A DNA stretch of 64,000 nt from positions 217,848,151-217,912,150 of the forward strand of contig CP136065.1 in the NCBI GenBank assembly GCA_032622095.1, in the 5' to 3' direction. This stretch comes from Siphonodentalium dalli. Lineage: Eukaryota > Mollusca > Scaphopoda > Gadilida > Siphonodentaliidae. A model generated the notes under the pieces. The model had not been told where the DNA came from and ran no database searches. It saw nothing but the letters and a program-made list of their open reading frames with translations. Shown piece after piece: positions 27,112-41,897 of the stretch (positions within the stretch are counted from its first letter, which is position 1; every line of letters begins with the position of its first letter). Position numbers and translations under genes: made by a program.

Positions 27112-27558
27112 TTAAAGCCACATGGCTGTTTGCGCTCCAAAATACACATAATATTATTCGCTTTTCAATTTTTATCAGTATCGAAATAGGTCGATAAATA
27201 TCTTATCTACCTTCCTACGAGCATTATGTAACCCAAAAAGACGCATTGATGTAATGAAAAATACCACTGTGAATACGGTATTTGGGTCCCAAACAAAAAA
27301 ACGCCATTTGCGCGACATGGGACAGAAAATATAGTTCCGTGGTAGTCTATTCCTGATATGGTAGCAATAAAGAGCGTTCGTCTGACTTCAGGCGAAAAGT
27401 TGAAAACGGCTGAAAAATAGCTGTGTCATTGGTGAGTGTTTTTCAGATATATGAAGCCGGTATATCAGTAGTTCGTTTATTTATCGACATATCGTGTCCG
27501 TCGCTCCCTAAACTACGTAGAAAAAAAATGGAGGTTCCAATGAGCCATGTCCTTTTAA
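27112..27558 (+). mobile_element. Family B TTAA MITE, inserted into family D
   Basis: A full-length copy (about 447 bp) from TTAAAGCCACATGGCTG to GAGCCATGTCCTTTTAA. The flanking family D sequence continues across it: ACGAAATAATTAA before and TTAATACACTACTGAAA after. Uninterrupted family D copies at about 24405 and 25000 show the empty site. This fixes both the TTAA duplication and the order of insertion (D older than this B copy). Confidence 0.92.
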
Positions 27559-28310
27559 TACACTACTGAAAAGAGTTACCGACGTCACAGCATTTTGTTT
27601 CACCTGTTCAAATGTTCGCATAGGTTTGGGACAGGCAATGACTAATATGGAAAGCTATTTAGTGTTTCAAATCGAATATAAAGGGAATGCTGTTTGTCTT
27701 ATCAGGAGATAAATTCAGTGGCTCCATGCAGAGTCTTTCAATACTGAACTTAGATTTCATAGCTGAAAAGATTTAGCCGCATATGCCGGTTTGTATTCCC
27801 TAATTGTCCCCCGAAAAACAAACGGTAAACTATAGAGTTCCGCCGACCGTCCGTCCGTCCCAGATTGGTTTCCAAATATCGTCAGTGATAATCAATTAAA
27901 TTAAACTATATTTGGTATGTTAGTTTATCGGTTAGAGGCACATATCAAGTTCGAATTTGGATGAGAATGTGAAGACTATTTGGTTTCGTGATGATAACTT
28001 TGCTTTTAATATCAAATTGTGTTCAAATGTTATATGTTGATTACACACATGTAAATGCAGAGAGCTATGGTTCTTGTCGACTTATAATTTGCCGATTATT
28101 TTGGTTTCCGGCTGATAACGTTAGCTATAGTTTATCCGATTATTTTCAATGTGTTTAAATAGATTGCTCAAATGAAAATACAGGATCTACACCGCGGAAT
28201 TACTTGAAGTCATGGAACTTAGATATTTTTCTTCAGCGTTATGCAATAAAGAGCGTCCATTGTTAGTGTATTACTAATACGGTATGATTAAGCATTTGTC
28301 GGGAATTTAT

Positions 28311-28323
28311 GCGGGGGGGGGGG
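28311..28323. repeat. Poly(G) run
   Basis: A run of about 12 G, also present at the equivalent place in copy 2 (about 31709-31720). It predates the duplication. Confidence 0.9.
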
Positions 28324-28354
28324 GTCTATGATTTCGGTACGTGTTTTCGTGTAT

Positions 28355-28750
28355 TTAAAGCCACATGGCGGTTTGCGCTCCAAAAATTTTCTCAGTATCG
28401 AAATAGGTCGATATATATCTTAACTAAAAAAAGACGCATTGAAGTAATGAAAAATACCACTGTGAATACGGTGTTTGGGTCCCAAACAAAAAACCGCCAT
28501 TTGCGCGACATGGAACAGAAAAGGGCGTTCCGTGGTAGTCTATTCCTGATATTGTAGCAATAAAGAGCGTTTGTCTGACTTCTGGCGAAAAGTTGAAAAC
28601 GGCTGAAACATGGCTGAGACTGAGGCGAGTGTTTTTCACACACATGAAGCCGGTATATCAGTAGTTCGTGTATTTATTGACCTATCGTGTCCGTCGCTCC
28701 AAATTACGTAGAAAAAAAAATGGAGGTTCGAATGAGCCATGTCCGTTTAA
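28355..28750 (+). mobile_element. Family B TTAA MITE, present in both duplication copies
   Basis: TTAAAGCCACATGGCGG to CCATGTCCGTTTAA. The orthologous insertion in copy 2 is 31752-32134, with the same flanks (GTTTTCGTGTAT before, GTTCCACGTA after). This insertion therefore predates the segmental duplication. An internal deletion near 28400-28430 removed part of the CTACCTTTCTACGAGC region. Confidence 0.92.
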
Positions 28751-29202
28751 GTTCCACGTACCAGTATTTGGTATATTTAAGGGCATATTGACAAATTATG
28801 TAGCCAATCATGTTTGAGGTTGAAATGTGCCATATCTGTTCAAAGACAAAAAATTACTCTTGTAACAGCGCGATAACTTGTGTCTTCCAAATTGTTCGGC
28901 TATACATGTCTTACTGCGTAAACTTAATCCAAACAATAGTGAATTCAGATGCCACGCATGTTGACAACTATACTTGTTTACACCTAACATGTAATAATCG
29001 ATGCAATATCGACATCTATGTGTTATCGCGCCTGATTACGTTCCTGATTATCCGCGGAATGAGTTGTTATCCCGAATTCGACAGAGCCAGTCATCAATTT
29101 GTGTGTACTTCAATATCTAATGTTCATTGGGTAATATAATATAGTTACGCGATACCGCGTCCCGATCGAAAATAGAACTTACTCCGGAACAATTGGCGGA
29201 AG

Positions 29203-29255
29203 TATAAAAAGAGTAGGCGTGATGCGTCCTGCGTGCGAGCCGTGTAAACATTCAG
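29203..29255 (+). promoter_or_regulatory. Possible TATA-type core promoter (duplication copy 1)
   Basis: TATAAAAAG at 29203-29211 follows GAACAATTGGCGGAAG. About 30-45 bp downstream lies CATTCAGTTTTACAGTTCGG, which could hold an initiator. The same arrangement is kept in copy 2 (TATAAAAAG at 33568-33576). The CG-rich run upstream (TACGCGATACCGCGTCCCGA) differs from the AT-rich surroundings. It could be the promoter of an LTR or an unannotated transcript, but no PBS or second LTR was found. Confidence 0.35.
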
Positions 29256-29741
29256 TTTTACAGTTCGGTCGAACTTAACTTATTGATTCAAAGTTTATGG
29301 TACAGATTGGGTATTTTCGTTGAGTTAAATTTAGGTCAAATTAACTTTTTGTCAACTGCTTAGTTCAATATCAGGCTCATTGTTTCTACCATGTAGGTTT
29401 ATTTATGTAGGTGAAATCTTTCCCCGCACACACACCGACGTGACATTTCGTATCTGCCAAAACCAACGAAAAATCTTCCAGTGAAATAGCAGGGACCGGA
29501 AATACAGATCGTGCAGAATAGACCTGTATGTACCAAAGTTCCACCCCAAGTCGATAGCTCGAGCGGAAACGGCAATGTTAACCTTTAACTGGACAAGGGA
29601 CCACTGATAGGTTATAACGATTACCTGTTAAATTATATATGGATGTCATTATTCATTCCTGTTCAAAAGGTCCTGCTAATTTGAAATGAAGTTTGTGGGT
29701 TCTGCTAAACAGCTATAATGATGTAGGGCGAACTGATGCTG

Positions 29742-29967
29742 TTAACCCATTGAGTGCCAGGTCAGATTTTTGTATCAACCCATATACCCTGTGCCAATGC
29801 ATTCTCTTATATATGCGAGTCGACCATAGGTCGCCTCGCATATATAAGAGAATGCATTGGCCTAACTATTTTTTGTTTTACATTATTATATTTTATTATA
29901 TTCTTTAACAGACTTCTTGTGTAGGTTTAGGGCCGATTAGATCGGCCCCTGGCACTCAAAGGGTTAA
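29742..29967 (+). mobile_element. E1 piggyBac-type MITE with hairpin, copy 1
   Basis: TTAA at both ends. The left terminus is CCCATTGAGTGCCAGG and the right terminus CCTGGCACTCAAAGGG, a clear inverted repeat starting with CCC as in piggyBac elements. A 67-bp hairpin fills 29794-29860: the 26-bp arms begin CCAATGCATTCTC and pair perfectly, around a centre with GACC and GGTC. Second-copy sequence at the same place carries a family A element instead (34181). It encodes no protein. Confidence 0.93.
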
Positions 29968-30064
29968 GAAGAAATATCGTTATTTTCGCGGTGTTTTGCT
30001 GATCTGAACGAATCGTGGAAATTATGTGTATAAAACATTAAAAACATATATTTTATAAAATAGT

Positions 30065-30323
30065 TTAACCCTTTGAGTGCCAGGGGCCGATATTATCGGC
30101 CCTAAACCTACACAATAAGTATGTTAAAGAATATAATAAAATATATTAAAATTGTAAAAAAAATTGTAAAAAAAAAAAAAACAATAATTTTTTTTTTTTT
30201 TAATCCAATGCATTCTCTTATATATGCGAGGCGACATATGGTCGACTCGCCTATATAACAGAATGCATTGGCACAGGGTATATGGGTTGATACAAAAATC
30301 GGACCTGGCACTCAAAGGGTTAA
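30065..30323 (-). mobile_element. E1 piggyBac-type MITE with hairpin, copy 2
   Basis: TTAACCCTTTGAGTGCCAG to CTGGCACTCAAAGGGTTAA. The hairpin lies at 30205-30271 with two mismatches (CTATATAACAG for the usual TATATAAGAG). A long A/T run near 30160-30200 separates the left end from the hairpin. Duplication copy 2 has an uninterrupted TAGTTTAATATC at 34772-34782, the exact empty site. Confidence 0.95.
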
Positions 30324-30651
30324 TATCTAATATTGAAAATAACAAATCAAGTAAACATATTGAAAATAACAATATAGAAGTTTCAAGAAATCTATGGACG
30401 TGACACAACAGTCACTAATCAAACTTATTTATAAAGGTTCAACATCTATATCCACATGTCACTCATATGTCACCAGTATGTGACAGTAGTATATATGAGG
30501 TCCTTACAATTGTTCCTTATAAAATTTTCAAATATCATAGGGCTAAAACCTCAATGCGATACGTGCTTTGCGTACGCAGTCCAGCGGTGGTCCATTCCGA
30601 TGCGCAGCATATTACGCCATCATGGTCCGTCCAGCAATGGTGAAGCTGGTT

Positions 30652-31044
30652 TTAAAGGCACGTGATGCCTTAGTTGTCGAAAATATTCATATTTGTTCCA
30701 ATCACCGTCAACAGAAAAACATTAAAACGCATTATGTAACCGAAAAAGACGCAATTGAAGTAATGCAAAATACCACTGTGAATATGGTATTTGGGTCCCA
30801 AACAAAAAACGCCATTTGCGCGACATGGAACAGAAAAGATAGTTCCGTGATAGTCTATTCCTGATATGGTAGCAATAAAGAGCGTTCGTCTGAATTCAGG
30901 CAAAAAGTTGAAAACGGCTGAAAAATGGCTGAGACTGAGGCGAGTGTTTTTCACACACATGAATCCGGTATATCAATAGTTCGTTTATTTATCGATATAT
31001 CGTGTCCGTCGCTCCAAACTACGTAGACAAAACTTGGAGGTTAA
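30652..31044 (+). mobile_element. Chimeric A/B element at the duplication junction
   Basis: Starts as family A (TTAAAGGCACGTGATGCCTT, then GAAAATATTCATATTTG) for about 75 bp. It switches near 30728 to the interior of family B (ACGCATTATGTAACCGAAAA) and runs to AACTTGGAGGTTAA. The left end is a normal family A end. The right end lacks the B terminus (CCATGTCCG) yet still stops at TTAA. It sits exactly between the two copies of the tandem duplication. Confidence 0.75.
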
Positions 31045-31751
31045 TATGGAAAGCTATTTAGTGTTTCAAATCGAATATAAAGGGAATGCTGTTTTTCTTA
31101 TCAGGAGATAAATTCAGTGGCTCCAGCGACTTTCAATACTGAACCTAGATTTCATAGCTGAAAAGATTTAGCCGCATGTGCCGGTTTGTATTCCCTAATT
31201 GTCCCCCGAAAAAACAAACGGTAAACTATAGAGTTCCGCCGACCGTCCGTCCGTCCCAGATTGGTTTCCAAATATCGTCAGTGATATGCAATGAAATTAA
31301 ACAAAATTTGGTATGTTAGTTTATCGGTTAGAGGCACATATCAAGTTCGAATTTGGATGAGAATGTGAAGACTATTTGGTTTCGTGATGATTACTTTGCT
31401 TTTAATATCAATTTTTTTTCAAATGTTATATGTGGATTACACACATGTAAATTCAGAGAGCTATGGTCCTTGTCGACTTATAATTTGCCGATAATTTTGG
31501 TTTCCGGCTGATAACGTTAGCTATAGTTTATCCGATTATTTTCAATGTGTTTATATAGATTGCTCAAATGAATATACAGGATCTACGCCGCGGAATTACT
31601 TGAAGTCATGGAACTTAGATATTTTTCTTCAGCATTATGCAACAAAGAGCGTCCATTATTAGTGTATTACTAATACGGTATGATTAAGCGTTTGTCGGGA
31701 ATTTATGCGGGGGGGGGGGGGTCTATGAATTCTGTACGTGTTTTCGTGTAT

Positions 31752-32134
31752 TTAAAGCCACATGGCGGTTTGCGCTCCAAAATACACATAATATTCGCTT
31801 TTTAATGTTTCTCAGTATTGAAATGGGTGGATAAATATCTTAACTAAAAATAGACGCATTGAAGTAATGAAAAATACCACTGTGAATACGGTGTTTGGGT
31901 ACCAAACAAAAAACCGCCATTTGCGCGACATGGAACAGAAAAGGGCGTTCCGTGGCTGTCTATTACTGATATTGTAGCAATAAAGAGCGTTTGTCTTACT
32001 TCTGGCGAAAAGATGAAAACGGCTTAAAAATGGCTGTGACTTTGGCGAGTGTTTCAGATATTTAAAGCTGGTATATCAATAGTTCGTTTATTTATCGACA
32101 TGATTGGGGGTTCGAATGAGCCATGTCCGTTTAA
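31752..32134 (+). mobile_element. Family B TTAA MITE, duplicate of 28355-28750
   Basis: Same insertion as in copy 1, with independent small deletions (the region ATTTATCGACATG runs straight into ATTGGGGGTTCGAATGAG). Its left end TTAAAGCCACATGGCGG and right end CCATGTCCGTTTAA are intact. Confidence 0.92.
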
Positions 32135-32351
32135 GTTCCACGTAGCAGTATTTCGTATATGTATGGGCATATTGACAAATTATGTAGCCAATCATGTTTG
32201 AGGTTGAAATGTGCCATATCTGTTCAAAGACAAAAAAAGTACTATAACGCTCTTGTAACAGCGCGATAACATGTGTCTTCCAAATTGTTCGGCTATACAT
32301 GTCTAACTGCGTAAACTTAATCCAAACAATAGTGAACTCGGATGCCACGTA

Positions 32352-33315
32352 CAGGGATGTGGCTAGAGGGTCTCCGCTGGGGGGGGGGTGTCCACCTTGG
32401 GAATTTCCAACTGCAACCCCCCCCCCTTGAGTCGGAATCACACCAACACAACTTTTTGCATAATTCCATTTGCACCCCCCCCCCCCCCCCCCCTTTGAGT
32501 CGGAATCGCACCAACACAACTTGTTTTGCATAATTCCATTTGCACCCCCCTTGTACCTCATGCTCAGGCCTAATTTCCTATATATTCATAAGCCATGCTT
32601 CTATTTTCCCAGTATGAGAACATTAAGATATTTTAACCTGAAAATTGCCCCAAAAAACAACTAGTGATCTAATTCCAGACAAATGCACACAGCTACCGAC
32701 AACAGACCAGGAAACACCGGGCCGACCATGGTTGTTTGGCCCGGTGTGAGAAATTTTTGAAAACTATATACAAGAAAATCGCAAATCCTATCATCTAGAC
32801 TGGCCTCAACTGAAGCTTTCCTAGTGTTTGAAATTTCAAACCTCATGCTCCCCCTCAGGTTGGAAAATTCTTCAACTGATGACCATTTATGTCTACAAGT
32901 TTGACCAAATGTAGTAAAATATTGTTTTGCTAAACTAATTAGCAGTTTTGTATTGGCCATGTGGATGGGGCAATGAAATCTGAACAAGAAAATCGCAAAA
33001 TCATAACATCTAGACTAGCCTCAAGCCTTCCTACTATTGGAAATTTCAAACCCTACACCCCCATATAGGTTGGAAAATTTCCAACTGATGACCATTCCAA
33101 TGACAATGTTGACCAATTGTATGACAATATTGTTATCTTAAATTAACTAGAAGTTTTTGACTGGCCACGGGGAGGGACCAGGACACAAGCTTTCCAAGTG
33201 TTGGAAATTTCCAACCTGTCACCCCCCTAAGGTTGGAAAATTTCCAACTGATGTCCATTTCTGTCAAAATTTTGGACCAAAAATAGGAACATATGCATAT
33301 CTAGCCACATCCCTG
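32352..33315. mobile_element. Non-autonomous hAT-like element
   Basis: The ends CAGGGATGTGGCTAGA and TCTAGCCACATCCCTG are a perfect 16-bp inverted repeat. The eight flanking bases are GCCACGTA and ACCACGCA, and the equivalent uninterrupted site in duplication copy 1 reads GCCACGCA, so an 8-bp duplication with two later changes is likely, as for hAT. Inside are poly(C)/poly(G) runs with a duplicated block ending GAGTCGGAATCACACCAACA, a short palindrome ACACCGGGCC/GGCCCGGTGT, and two to three diverged copies of a roughly 210-bp unit (GTTGGAAAATT, CAACTGATGACCATT). Frames crossing it, up to 157 codons, are low-complexity and not genes. Confidence 0.85.
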
Positions 33316-33567
33316 ACCACGCATGTTGACAAATATACTTGTTTACAACTAACATGTAATAATCGATGTAATATCGACCTCTAGGTGTGATCGCGCCTCA
33401 TTACATTCCTGATTATCCGCGGAATGGTTTGTTATCCCGAATTCGACAGAGCTAGTCATCAATTTGTGTGTACCTCAATTGCTAATGTTCAGTGGGTAAT
33501 ATAATATAGTTACGCGATACCGCGTCCCGATCGAAAATAGAACATACTCAGGAACAATTGGCGGAAG

Positions 33568-33620
33568 TATAAAAAGAGTAGGCGTGATTCGTCCTTCGTG
33601 CGAGCCGTGTAAACATTCAG
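33568..33620 (+). promoter_or_regulatory. Possible TATA-type core promoter (duplication copy 2)
   Basis: TATAAAAAG with the same upstream GGAACAATTGGCGGAAG and the downstream CATTCAGTTTTACAGTTCGG as in copy 1 at 29203. Conservation after duplication is not evidence of function, because both copies are similar throughout. Confidence 0.35.
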
Positions 33621-34180
33621 TTTTACAGTTCGGTCGAACTTAACTTATTGATTCAAAGTTTATGGTACAGATTGGGTATTTTCGTTGAGTTAAATGTAGG
33701 TCAAATTAACTTTTTGTCAATCAAACTGCTTAGTTCAATATCAGGCTCATTGTGTCTACCAGGTAGGTTTATCTCATGGTGAAATATTTCCCCGCACACA
33801 TATCTATTGGCACTATCTTGGTGCAATTAATGGTCCGCATTTAAACCAAAAACTCTATCGGAATTCACACACCGACGTGACATTTCGTACCTGCCAAAAC
33901 CAACGAAAAATATTCCAGTGAAATAGCAGGGACCGAAAATACAGATCGTGCAGAATAGACCTGTATGTACCAAAGTTCCACCCCAAGTCGATAGATCGAG
34001 CGGCAACGGCAATGTTAACCCTTAACTGGACAAGGGACCACTGATAGGTTATAACGAGTATACCTGTTAAATTATATATAGATGTCAGTATTCATCCCTG
34101 TTCAAACGGTCCTGCTAATTTGAAATGAAGTTTGTGGGTTCTGCTAAACAGCTATAATGATGAAGGGCGAACTGATGCTG

Positions 34181-34677
34181 TTAAAGGCACGTGAGGCCTT
34201 AGTTGTCGAAAATATTCATATTTGTTCCAATCACCGTAAACAGAAACAAACAGTAAAACGCATACAGTTTCGTTCATATATACCATGACCATCGCGTAAA
34301 CAGCATGTTATCATAAAGACCTACTATATTTTACCTAAGCAAGAATCTGATTGTGTTACAGAAGACAGCGCAATGCTACTGGCTAATCACACACAAATGG
34401 CATAAACGCTCTTTATTATTTCCATATCAGGAATTCACCAACAAAGAACGCTCTTTATGTTTACCATCATAATATAAACAAACACCAGAAAAGTAACTTT
34501 TTATGCTTTTGTTTACATAACAATGGTCAACCATATGACAATAACACACTGTTTATGCGATATTTCTTATTTGTATACGGACAAAGTCTGTCTACATTTC
34601 TTTCTGTTTGTGGCGGTTTTTGACGGTTGGAAATATTTTCACAGGATACCCACCGCCAAGGCCAACCGTACCTTTAA
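34181..34677 (+). mobile_element. Family A TTAA MITE
   Basis: TTAAAGGCACGTGAGGCCTT at the left, AAGGCCAACCGTACCTTTAA at the right: an imperfect inverted repeat with TTAA at both ends. Inside are AACGCTCTTTATTATTTCCA followed by TATCAGG, and CCCACCGCC near the right end. Flanks are ACTGATGCTG and GAAGAAATATCG, the same as those of the E1 element at 29742 in duplication copy 1. Confidence 0.92.
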
Positions 34678-35402
34678 GAAGAAATATCGTTATTTTCACT
34701 GTGTTTTGCTAATCTGAACGAATCGAGGAAATTATGTGTATAAAACATTAAAAACATATATTTTATAAAATAGTTTAATATCTAATATTGAAAATAACAA
34801 ATCAAGTAAACATATTGAAAATAACAATATAGAAGTTTCAAGAAATCTATGAACGTGACTAATCAAACTTATTTATAAAAGTTCAACATCTATATCCACA
34901 TGTCACTCATATGTCACCAGTATGTGACAGTAGTATATATGAGGTCCTTACAATTGTTCCTTATAATTTTTTTCAAATATCATAGGGCTAAAACCTCAAT
35001 GCGATACGTGCTTTGCGCACAGGGTCCAACAGTGGTCCAATCCTATGCGTAGCATATTATTCAATCATGGTCCGTCCAGCAATGGTGAAGCTGGTTATAA
35101 CCCTGACCGGCTTATATCTGTGATCCATTCAAAGGACGGATAAACTTATTCGTGTATCTTGGAAAGACAGACAGCTGCCTTCCATGGTCGATGGTGTAGT
35201 GGCGTTATTCCATACTGAAAATACCATTTGGGTGGTCATTCATCCACCATTAGAACCGATGAAGTCATGGCATGACTTAATGGCTGATATAACTATATAA
35301 TAAAAACATAAAGCTAAAGGAAGCTCTGTAAGTTTGGATAAGTAGCCTTCGTGTGGAATTGTTTACTCATTTTATTTTGATATCAGCACCACCACGTTTA
35401 AA

Positions 35403-41396: not shown

Positions 41397-41897
41397 TTAA
41401 AGGCACGTGCGGCCTTAATTGTCGAAAATATTCATATTTGTTCCAAACACCGTAAACAGAAAAACAGTAAAACGCATACAGTTCCGTTTATATATACCAT
41501 GACCATCGCATAAGCAGCATGTTATCATAAAGACCTACTATATTTTACCTAAGCAAGAGCCTGATTGTGTTACAGAAGAGAGCACAATGCTACTGGCTAA
41601 TCACACACTAATGGCATAAACGCTCTTTATTATTTCCATATCAGGTACTCTCCAACAAAGAACGCTCTTTATGATTACCATCATAATATAAACAAACACC
41701 AGAAAAGTAACTTTTTACGCTTTTGTTTACATAACAATGGTCAAACAAATGACCATAGTTACTGTTTATGCGATATTTCTTATATGTATACGGACAAAGT
41801 CTATCTACATTTTGATGTTCTTTCTGTTTGTGGCGGTTTTTGACGGATGGAGATATTTTCACAGGATACCCACCGCCAAGGCCAACCGTGTCTTTAA
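41397..41897 (+). mobile_element. Family A TTAA MITE
   Basis: TTAAAGGCACGTGCGGCCTT at the left and AAGGCCAACCGTGTCTTTAA at the right, 501 bp including both TTAA. It is nearly collinear with 34181-34677 throughout, with scattered changes. Confidence 0.92.

Follow-up and report, generated by a model that had tools for sequence, protein, structure and literature searches.

How did two unrelated transposable elements come to occupy the same four bases in the two copies of a duplication? The window, the 64,000-nucleotide stretch of contig C5 analysed here (genome of 2.23 Gb in 9 contigs), contains a local duplication (27643-30655 versus 31042-35103, by BLAST and MAFFT) whose alignment is interrupted by several insertions, and at one TTAA copy 1 carries an element of family E1 (E1a), while copy 2 carries one of family A (A1). 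The earlier note had placed both elements within the same flanks, and its coordinates and flanks hold. Its claim that two unrelated families sit at the very same TTAA in paralogous DNA also stands, since E1 has piggyBac-type and A Kolobok-type ends, and the flanks are homologous up to the TTAA. The features are listed in Table 1.

Table 1 Features of the duplicated locus and of the two element families in the window
Feature	Position	Strand	Basis
Copy 1, host DNA around the site	28952..30655	+	BLAST and MAFFT against copy 2; inner elements excluded from the homology
Copy 2, host DNA around the site	33317..35103	+	BLAST and MAFFT against copy 1
E1a, putative piggyBac-type MITE, copy 1	29742..29967	+	218 bases between TTAAs, 15/18 terminal bases matching, internal palindrome
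E1b, second E1 element in copy 1	30065..30323	-	Inverted relative to E1a
A1, putative Kolobok-type MITE at the homologous TTAA of copy 2	34181..34677	+	489 bases between TTAAs, 13/18 terminal bases matching
Single unoccupied TTAA of copy 2, counterpart of the E1b site	34775..34778	.	Alignment of the copies
5' fragment (81 bases) of another A element, end of copy 1	30652..30732	+	TTATAA at this place in copy 2
Further full A element in the window	41397..41897	+	5.5% (27/493) from the majority of A1's relatives

The left flanks (29429-29745 and 33866-34184) are 95.9% identical and the right flanks (29964-30068 and 34674-34778) 96.2% identical, and on both sides the match stops at the TTAA. The copies align closely through ...GATGCTG-TTAA, after which copy 1 runs into E1a and copy 2 into A1; beyond each element, both continue as TTAA-GAAGAAATATCG. 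One TTAA thus stands on each side of the element in both copies, and the aligned copies show neither extra bases at either junction nor A letters beside E1a or E1 letters beside A1. The alignment proposed in the earlier note, which had allowed for flanks that differ by more than the elements or for an E1 lying inside a remnant of A, therefore leaves its description intact: the flank identities speak against the former, and the latter is ruled out because no A letters lie beside E1. At the second TTAA to the right of the site, copy 1 (30065) has E1b, whereas copy 2 (34775) has no element. All occupancy states at the site were read from one assembly, in the two window copies. The 313-base left flank has at least 73 genome matches (the best 40 of 1360 candidates scored); among those listed, the two full-length ones are the window copies, and the other 71 are fragments no longer than 88 bases that belong to a dispersed repeat inside the flank. 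At the other end of copy 1, the 81-base A piece marks the junction of the duplication's two units and is directly followed by a dispersed repeat (30729-31042, similar to 27221-27536).

To read the site as it was before insertion, we searched the genome with the locus minus its element, which gave at least 52 rows (the best 40 of 688 candidates scored). Four rows belong to the two window copies, whose matches both stop at the TTAA; another 35 come from dispersed relatives with 70-79% identity, in which one alignment runs straight through the junction; two (84 and 86% identity) start 12 bases past the TTAA, and the remaining 11 are short tails within a single tandem array. Judged by these matches, the site lies in an old dispersed repeat (29640-30059 and 34079-34769), one of whose 35 listed relatives adjoins a short tandem array on C9. 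In the 20 best-ranked of the run-through relatives, which are uninterrupted by choice and include near-duplicates (L091/L092, L090/L097, L105/L106), so that not all are independent, the TTAA is found exactly at the junction in 13 and is altered or missing in 7. The TTAA kept in 13 of 20 uninterrupted relatives indicates that the site was originally an empty TTAA. Because this search scores interrupted relatives lower, it gives no unbiased occupancy rate for the TTAA.

The ends of E1 read CCC(T/A)TTGAGTGCC and enclose a long internal palindrome; the left end of E1a reads CCCATTG, and the other three ends of E1a and E1b read CCCTTTG. The genome contains 16,492 exact occurrences of the 17-base E1 end, and an exact TTAA borders both sides of the match in 24 of 30 fetched E1 loci (window copy included). 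The E1b site, with its one TTAA in copy 2, is consistent with a 4-base target duplication. According to the available text of PMC2872659, piggyBac-type MITEs combine TTAA with a CC[C/T]T terminal motif; E1 has both the TTAA target duplication and the motif, and by these features it fits the piggyBac-type MITEs, which it also resembles in its short terminal inverted repeats and in an empty site with a single TTAA. The genome contains 128 matches to PF13843 (piggyBac transposase family), many in open frames of more than 500 codons. No transposase gene with the end pair of E1 was found among five loci fetched from these matches, of which only L079 has a loosely E1-like single end.

Family A begins with AGGCACG and ends with CGTACCT, and TTAA is present on both sides in 29 of 30 fetched loci (window copy included). 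Its AG...CT termini agree with the 5'-RR and YY-3' ends of the Kolobok superfamily (PMC9587614, as far as its available part goes), and with the TTAA target they suggest that A fits this superfamily (available parts of PMC6004289 and PMC9587614). In those same texts, Kolobok-type MITEs such as the T2-MITE of Xenopus share with A the TTAA target, the 5'-AGG terminus and the RR...YY ends. The solo long terminal direct repeats of KolobokP, as described in the accessible part of PMC9587614, resemble A in length (489-495 bases for A versus a class of ~450 bp, with examples of 473 and 480), in short imperfect inverted ends, in TTAA and in numerous solo copies. A BLAST comparison of A1 with the window and the fetched loci revealed no two near-identical copies in direct orientation flanking a coding interior; in L026, an A is followed 308 bases on by an A-like piece of the same orientation that has diverged (80%). 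The sole long candidate read, the 2.9-kb A-ended L087 (C1:8394370-8397230), was rejected as a KolobokP: in it, ~2.4 kb with reverse-transcriptase-like frames (labelled by eye) take the place of the middle of an A, and these frames are not the coding interior of a direct pair.

The TTAA target of A is confirmed, by sequence comparison, in the host repeat of L002. With A left out this repeat gives 13 rows, in which nine other copies match the joined site full-length or in all but one base; a single TTAA is seen in L085 (an uninterrupted copy) and in L086 (a partial row), and L084, from another row, has A at the same TTAA. The search misses copies, as L015 and L029, with the same flank, are absent from its list. 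L002, L015, L029 and L084 belong to one multicopy repeat with A at the same TTAA in several copies, which is probably a single inherited insertion; L029 shares the left flank and has a different right flank.

To place the insertions relative to the duplication, we compared their divergences. Between the copies, 126 of the 2486 aligned bases are different (5.07%), which amounts to ~2.5% for each copy if both changed at the same rate; a hand calculation from the 115 mismatches that BLAST gives for its six main blocks yields ~2.3%. Element ages were taken from the best-matching relatives, which somewhat shortens the distances. In A1, 7 of 488 bases (1.4%) depart from the majority of its relatives, and a few relatives share three of these 7; insertion at the time of the duplication would predict 11.1-12.4 differences (probability of 7 or fewer, 0.135 or 0.075), and the shortfall weakly suggests that A1 is younger than the duplication. 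For E1a, the raw divergence of 8/217 falls to 4/174 (2.3%) once an A/T slippage tract is left out, and E1b has 3/175 outside its tract, against 4.0-4.4 expected for each. Both ages equal that of the duplication within error, and E1a could be older. We also considered E1b as an older insertion that would prove excision, and rejected it because its raw 13/241 (5.4%) consists mostly of slippage-tract differences. By these divergences no element is clearly older than the duplication, and therefore no excision is required.

How often should two such families meet? The copies have 16 distinct TTAA sites in common (18 alignment rows, with two sites listed twice), and with two of them taken by E1 in copy 1, even use gives an A inserted into copy 2 a chance of 2/16 (~1 in 8) of landing on an E1 site. 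Across the genome, a TTAA is followed by an A-like end 39,130 times (3,080 in a reversed-pattern control), and exact E1-TTAA-A junctions number 18, versus 17.6-22.1 expected under even use from the TTAA densities of the window and the fetched flanks. A set of 3,140 junctions with at most 3 mismatches was left unused, since a random 7-base extension behind an exact E1 end often passes, a case that the reversed-pattern control does not cover. For E1-E1 junctions the count is 7 versus 3.7-4.7 (P 0.08-0.19), and for A-A junctions, where two A elements meet head to head at one TTAA, it is 106 versus 21-26, a 4-5 fold excess; full head-to-head A pairs share a TTAA in L014 (1003-1997) and lie 25 bases apart in L019 and L020 (1501-2514). 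This excess points to uneven self-sharing in family A, which may come about through self-targeting, paired movement or tandem arrays, and among the exact E1-TTAA-A junctions of the genome it does not extend to E1 with A.

The earlier note had suggested a strong local insertion hotspot, and these counts, like the site itself, give it little room. Two insertions at a single TTAA are what a hotspot for both families would produce, and piggyBac hotspots are reported in human cells (PMC3078864, in its available part). However, in a small flank matrix the site ranks only mid-table among the 16 (6th for A, 5th for E1), and of the matches listed in the host-repeat search (the best 40 of 688 candidates scored) none is interrupted at the TTAA apart from the window copies, a biased view of occupancy. 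A hotspot through an extended motif was also rejected: inspected by eye only, 53 A and 48 E1 sides (101 sides) pointed to no strong preference outside the TTAA itself, with modest departures such as a surplus of C and a shortage of G at position 7 on the E1 sides. We therefore regard a hotspot as very unlikely. In human cells, piggyBac is reported to select TTAAs by context within ~100 bases (same available part of PMC3078864), so even use of TTAAs is a simplification.

Taken together, E1a and A1 are probably independent insertions, made after, or about when, the duplication arose. We infer the transposase types and the order of events from the element ends and ages: a piece of an old dispersed repeat with an empty TTAA would have been duplicated locally, after which, or at about which time, copy 1 would have received its E1 elements (29742 and 30065) from a piggyBac-type enzyme and copy 2 its A element (34181) from a Kolobok-type enzyme. 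That the two families met at one TTAA would follow from their common TTAA target and from the small number of such sites present in both copies. The clean junctions, and E1b opposite an empty TTAA in copy 2, support independent insertion; against it count the age of E1a, equal to that of the duplication, the weak youth of A1 (P 0.075-0.135), the A-A excess and the untested flank departures.

The main competitor is clean excision and reuse, also raised in the earlier note, in which E1 or A was inherited by both copies, lost from one without a scar and followed in the restored TTAA by an unrelated superfamily. This possible course is compatible with the data and not needed by them, and overall we consider it unlikely. 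Its form with E1 as the ancestral element, precisely excised from copy 2 in piggyBac fashion before A took the site, is somewhat less likely again: the 2.3% divergence of E1a is the value expected at the duplication, piggyBac transposases usually excise precisely (available part of PMC2872659) and piggyBac transposase frames are present in the genome, but one additional event is needed, copy 2 retains no trace of a former E1, and the absence of E1b from copy 2 is equally well a later insertion, given its 3/175. Were A ancestral instead, having departed cleanly from copy 1 before E1 refilled the TTAA, A1 should not be the younger, as its 7 differences against 11.1-12.4 weakly suggest; the accessible part of PMC9587614 offers strong indications that solo Kolobok-type repeats are excised, but the excisions described there left nucleotide footprints, of which this site has none, and we hold this course to be highly improbable. 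Least probable of all is an ancestor in which E1-TTAA-A neighbours, present before or at the duplication, each lost a different member in the two copies. The 18 exact junctions show that such neighbours exist in this genome, but their frequency is not above chance and two losses would be required.

The locus can thus be explained by two MITE families that target TTAA and inserted independently at an ancestral TTAA, with no need for a hotspot or clean excision, which makes it an ordinary event. In titles and abstract openings, a literature search returned no account of two TTAA families at one paralogous TTAA, a result that covers those texts and not all that is in print. The locus is a tidy case of two unrelated transposon groups using the same four-base target. 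It also provides a worked null, in which tens of thousands of TTAA-flanked element ends lead to meetings of E1 and A near the rate of even use. If other individuals or species were to prove excision and reuse instead, scarless replacement would be documented in nature.
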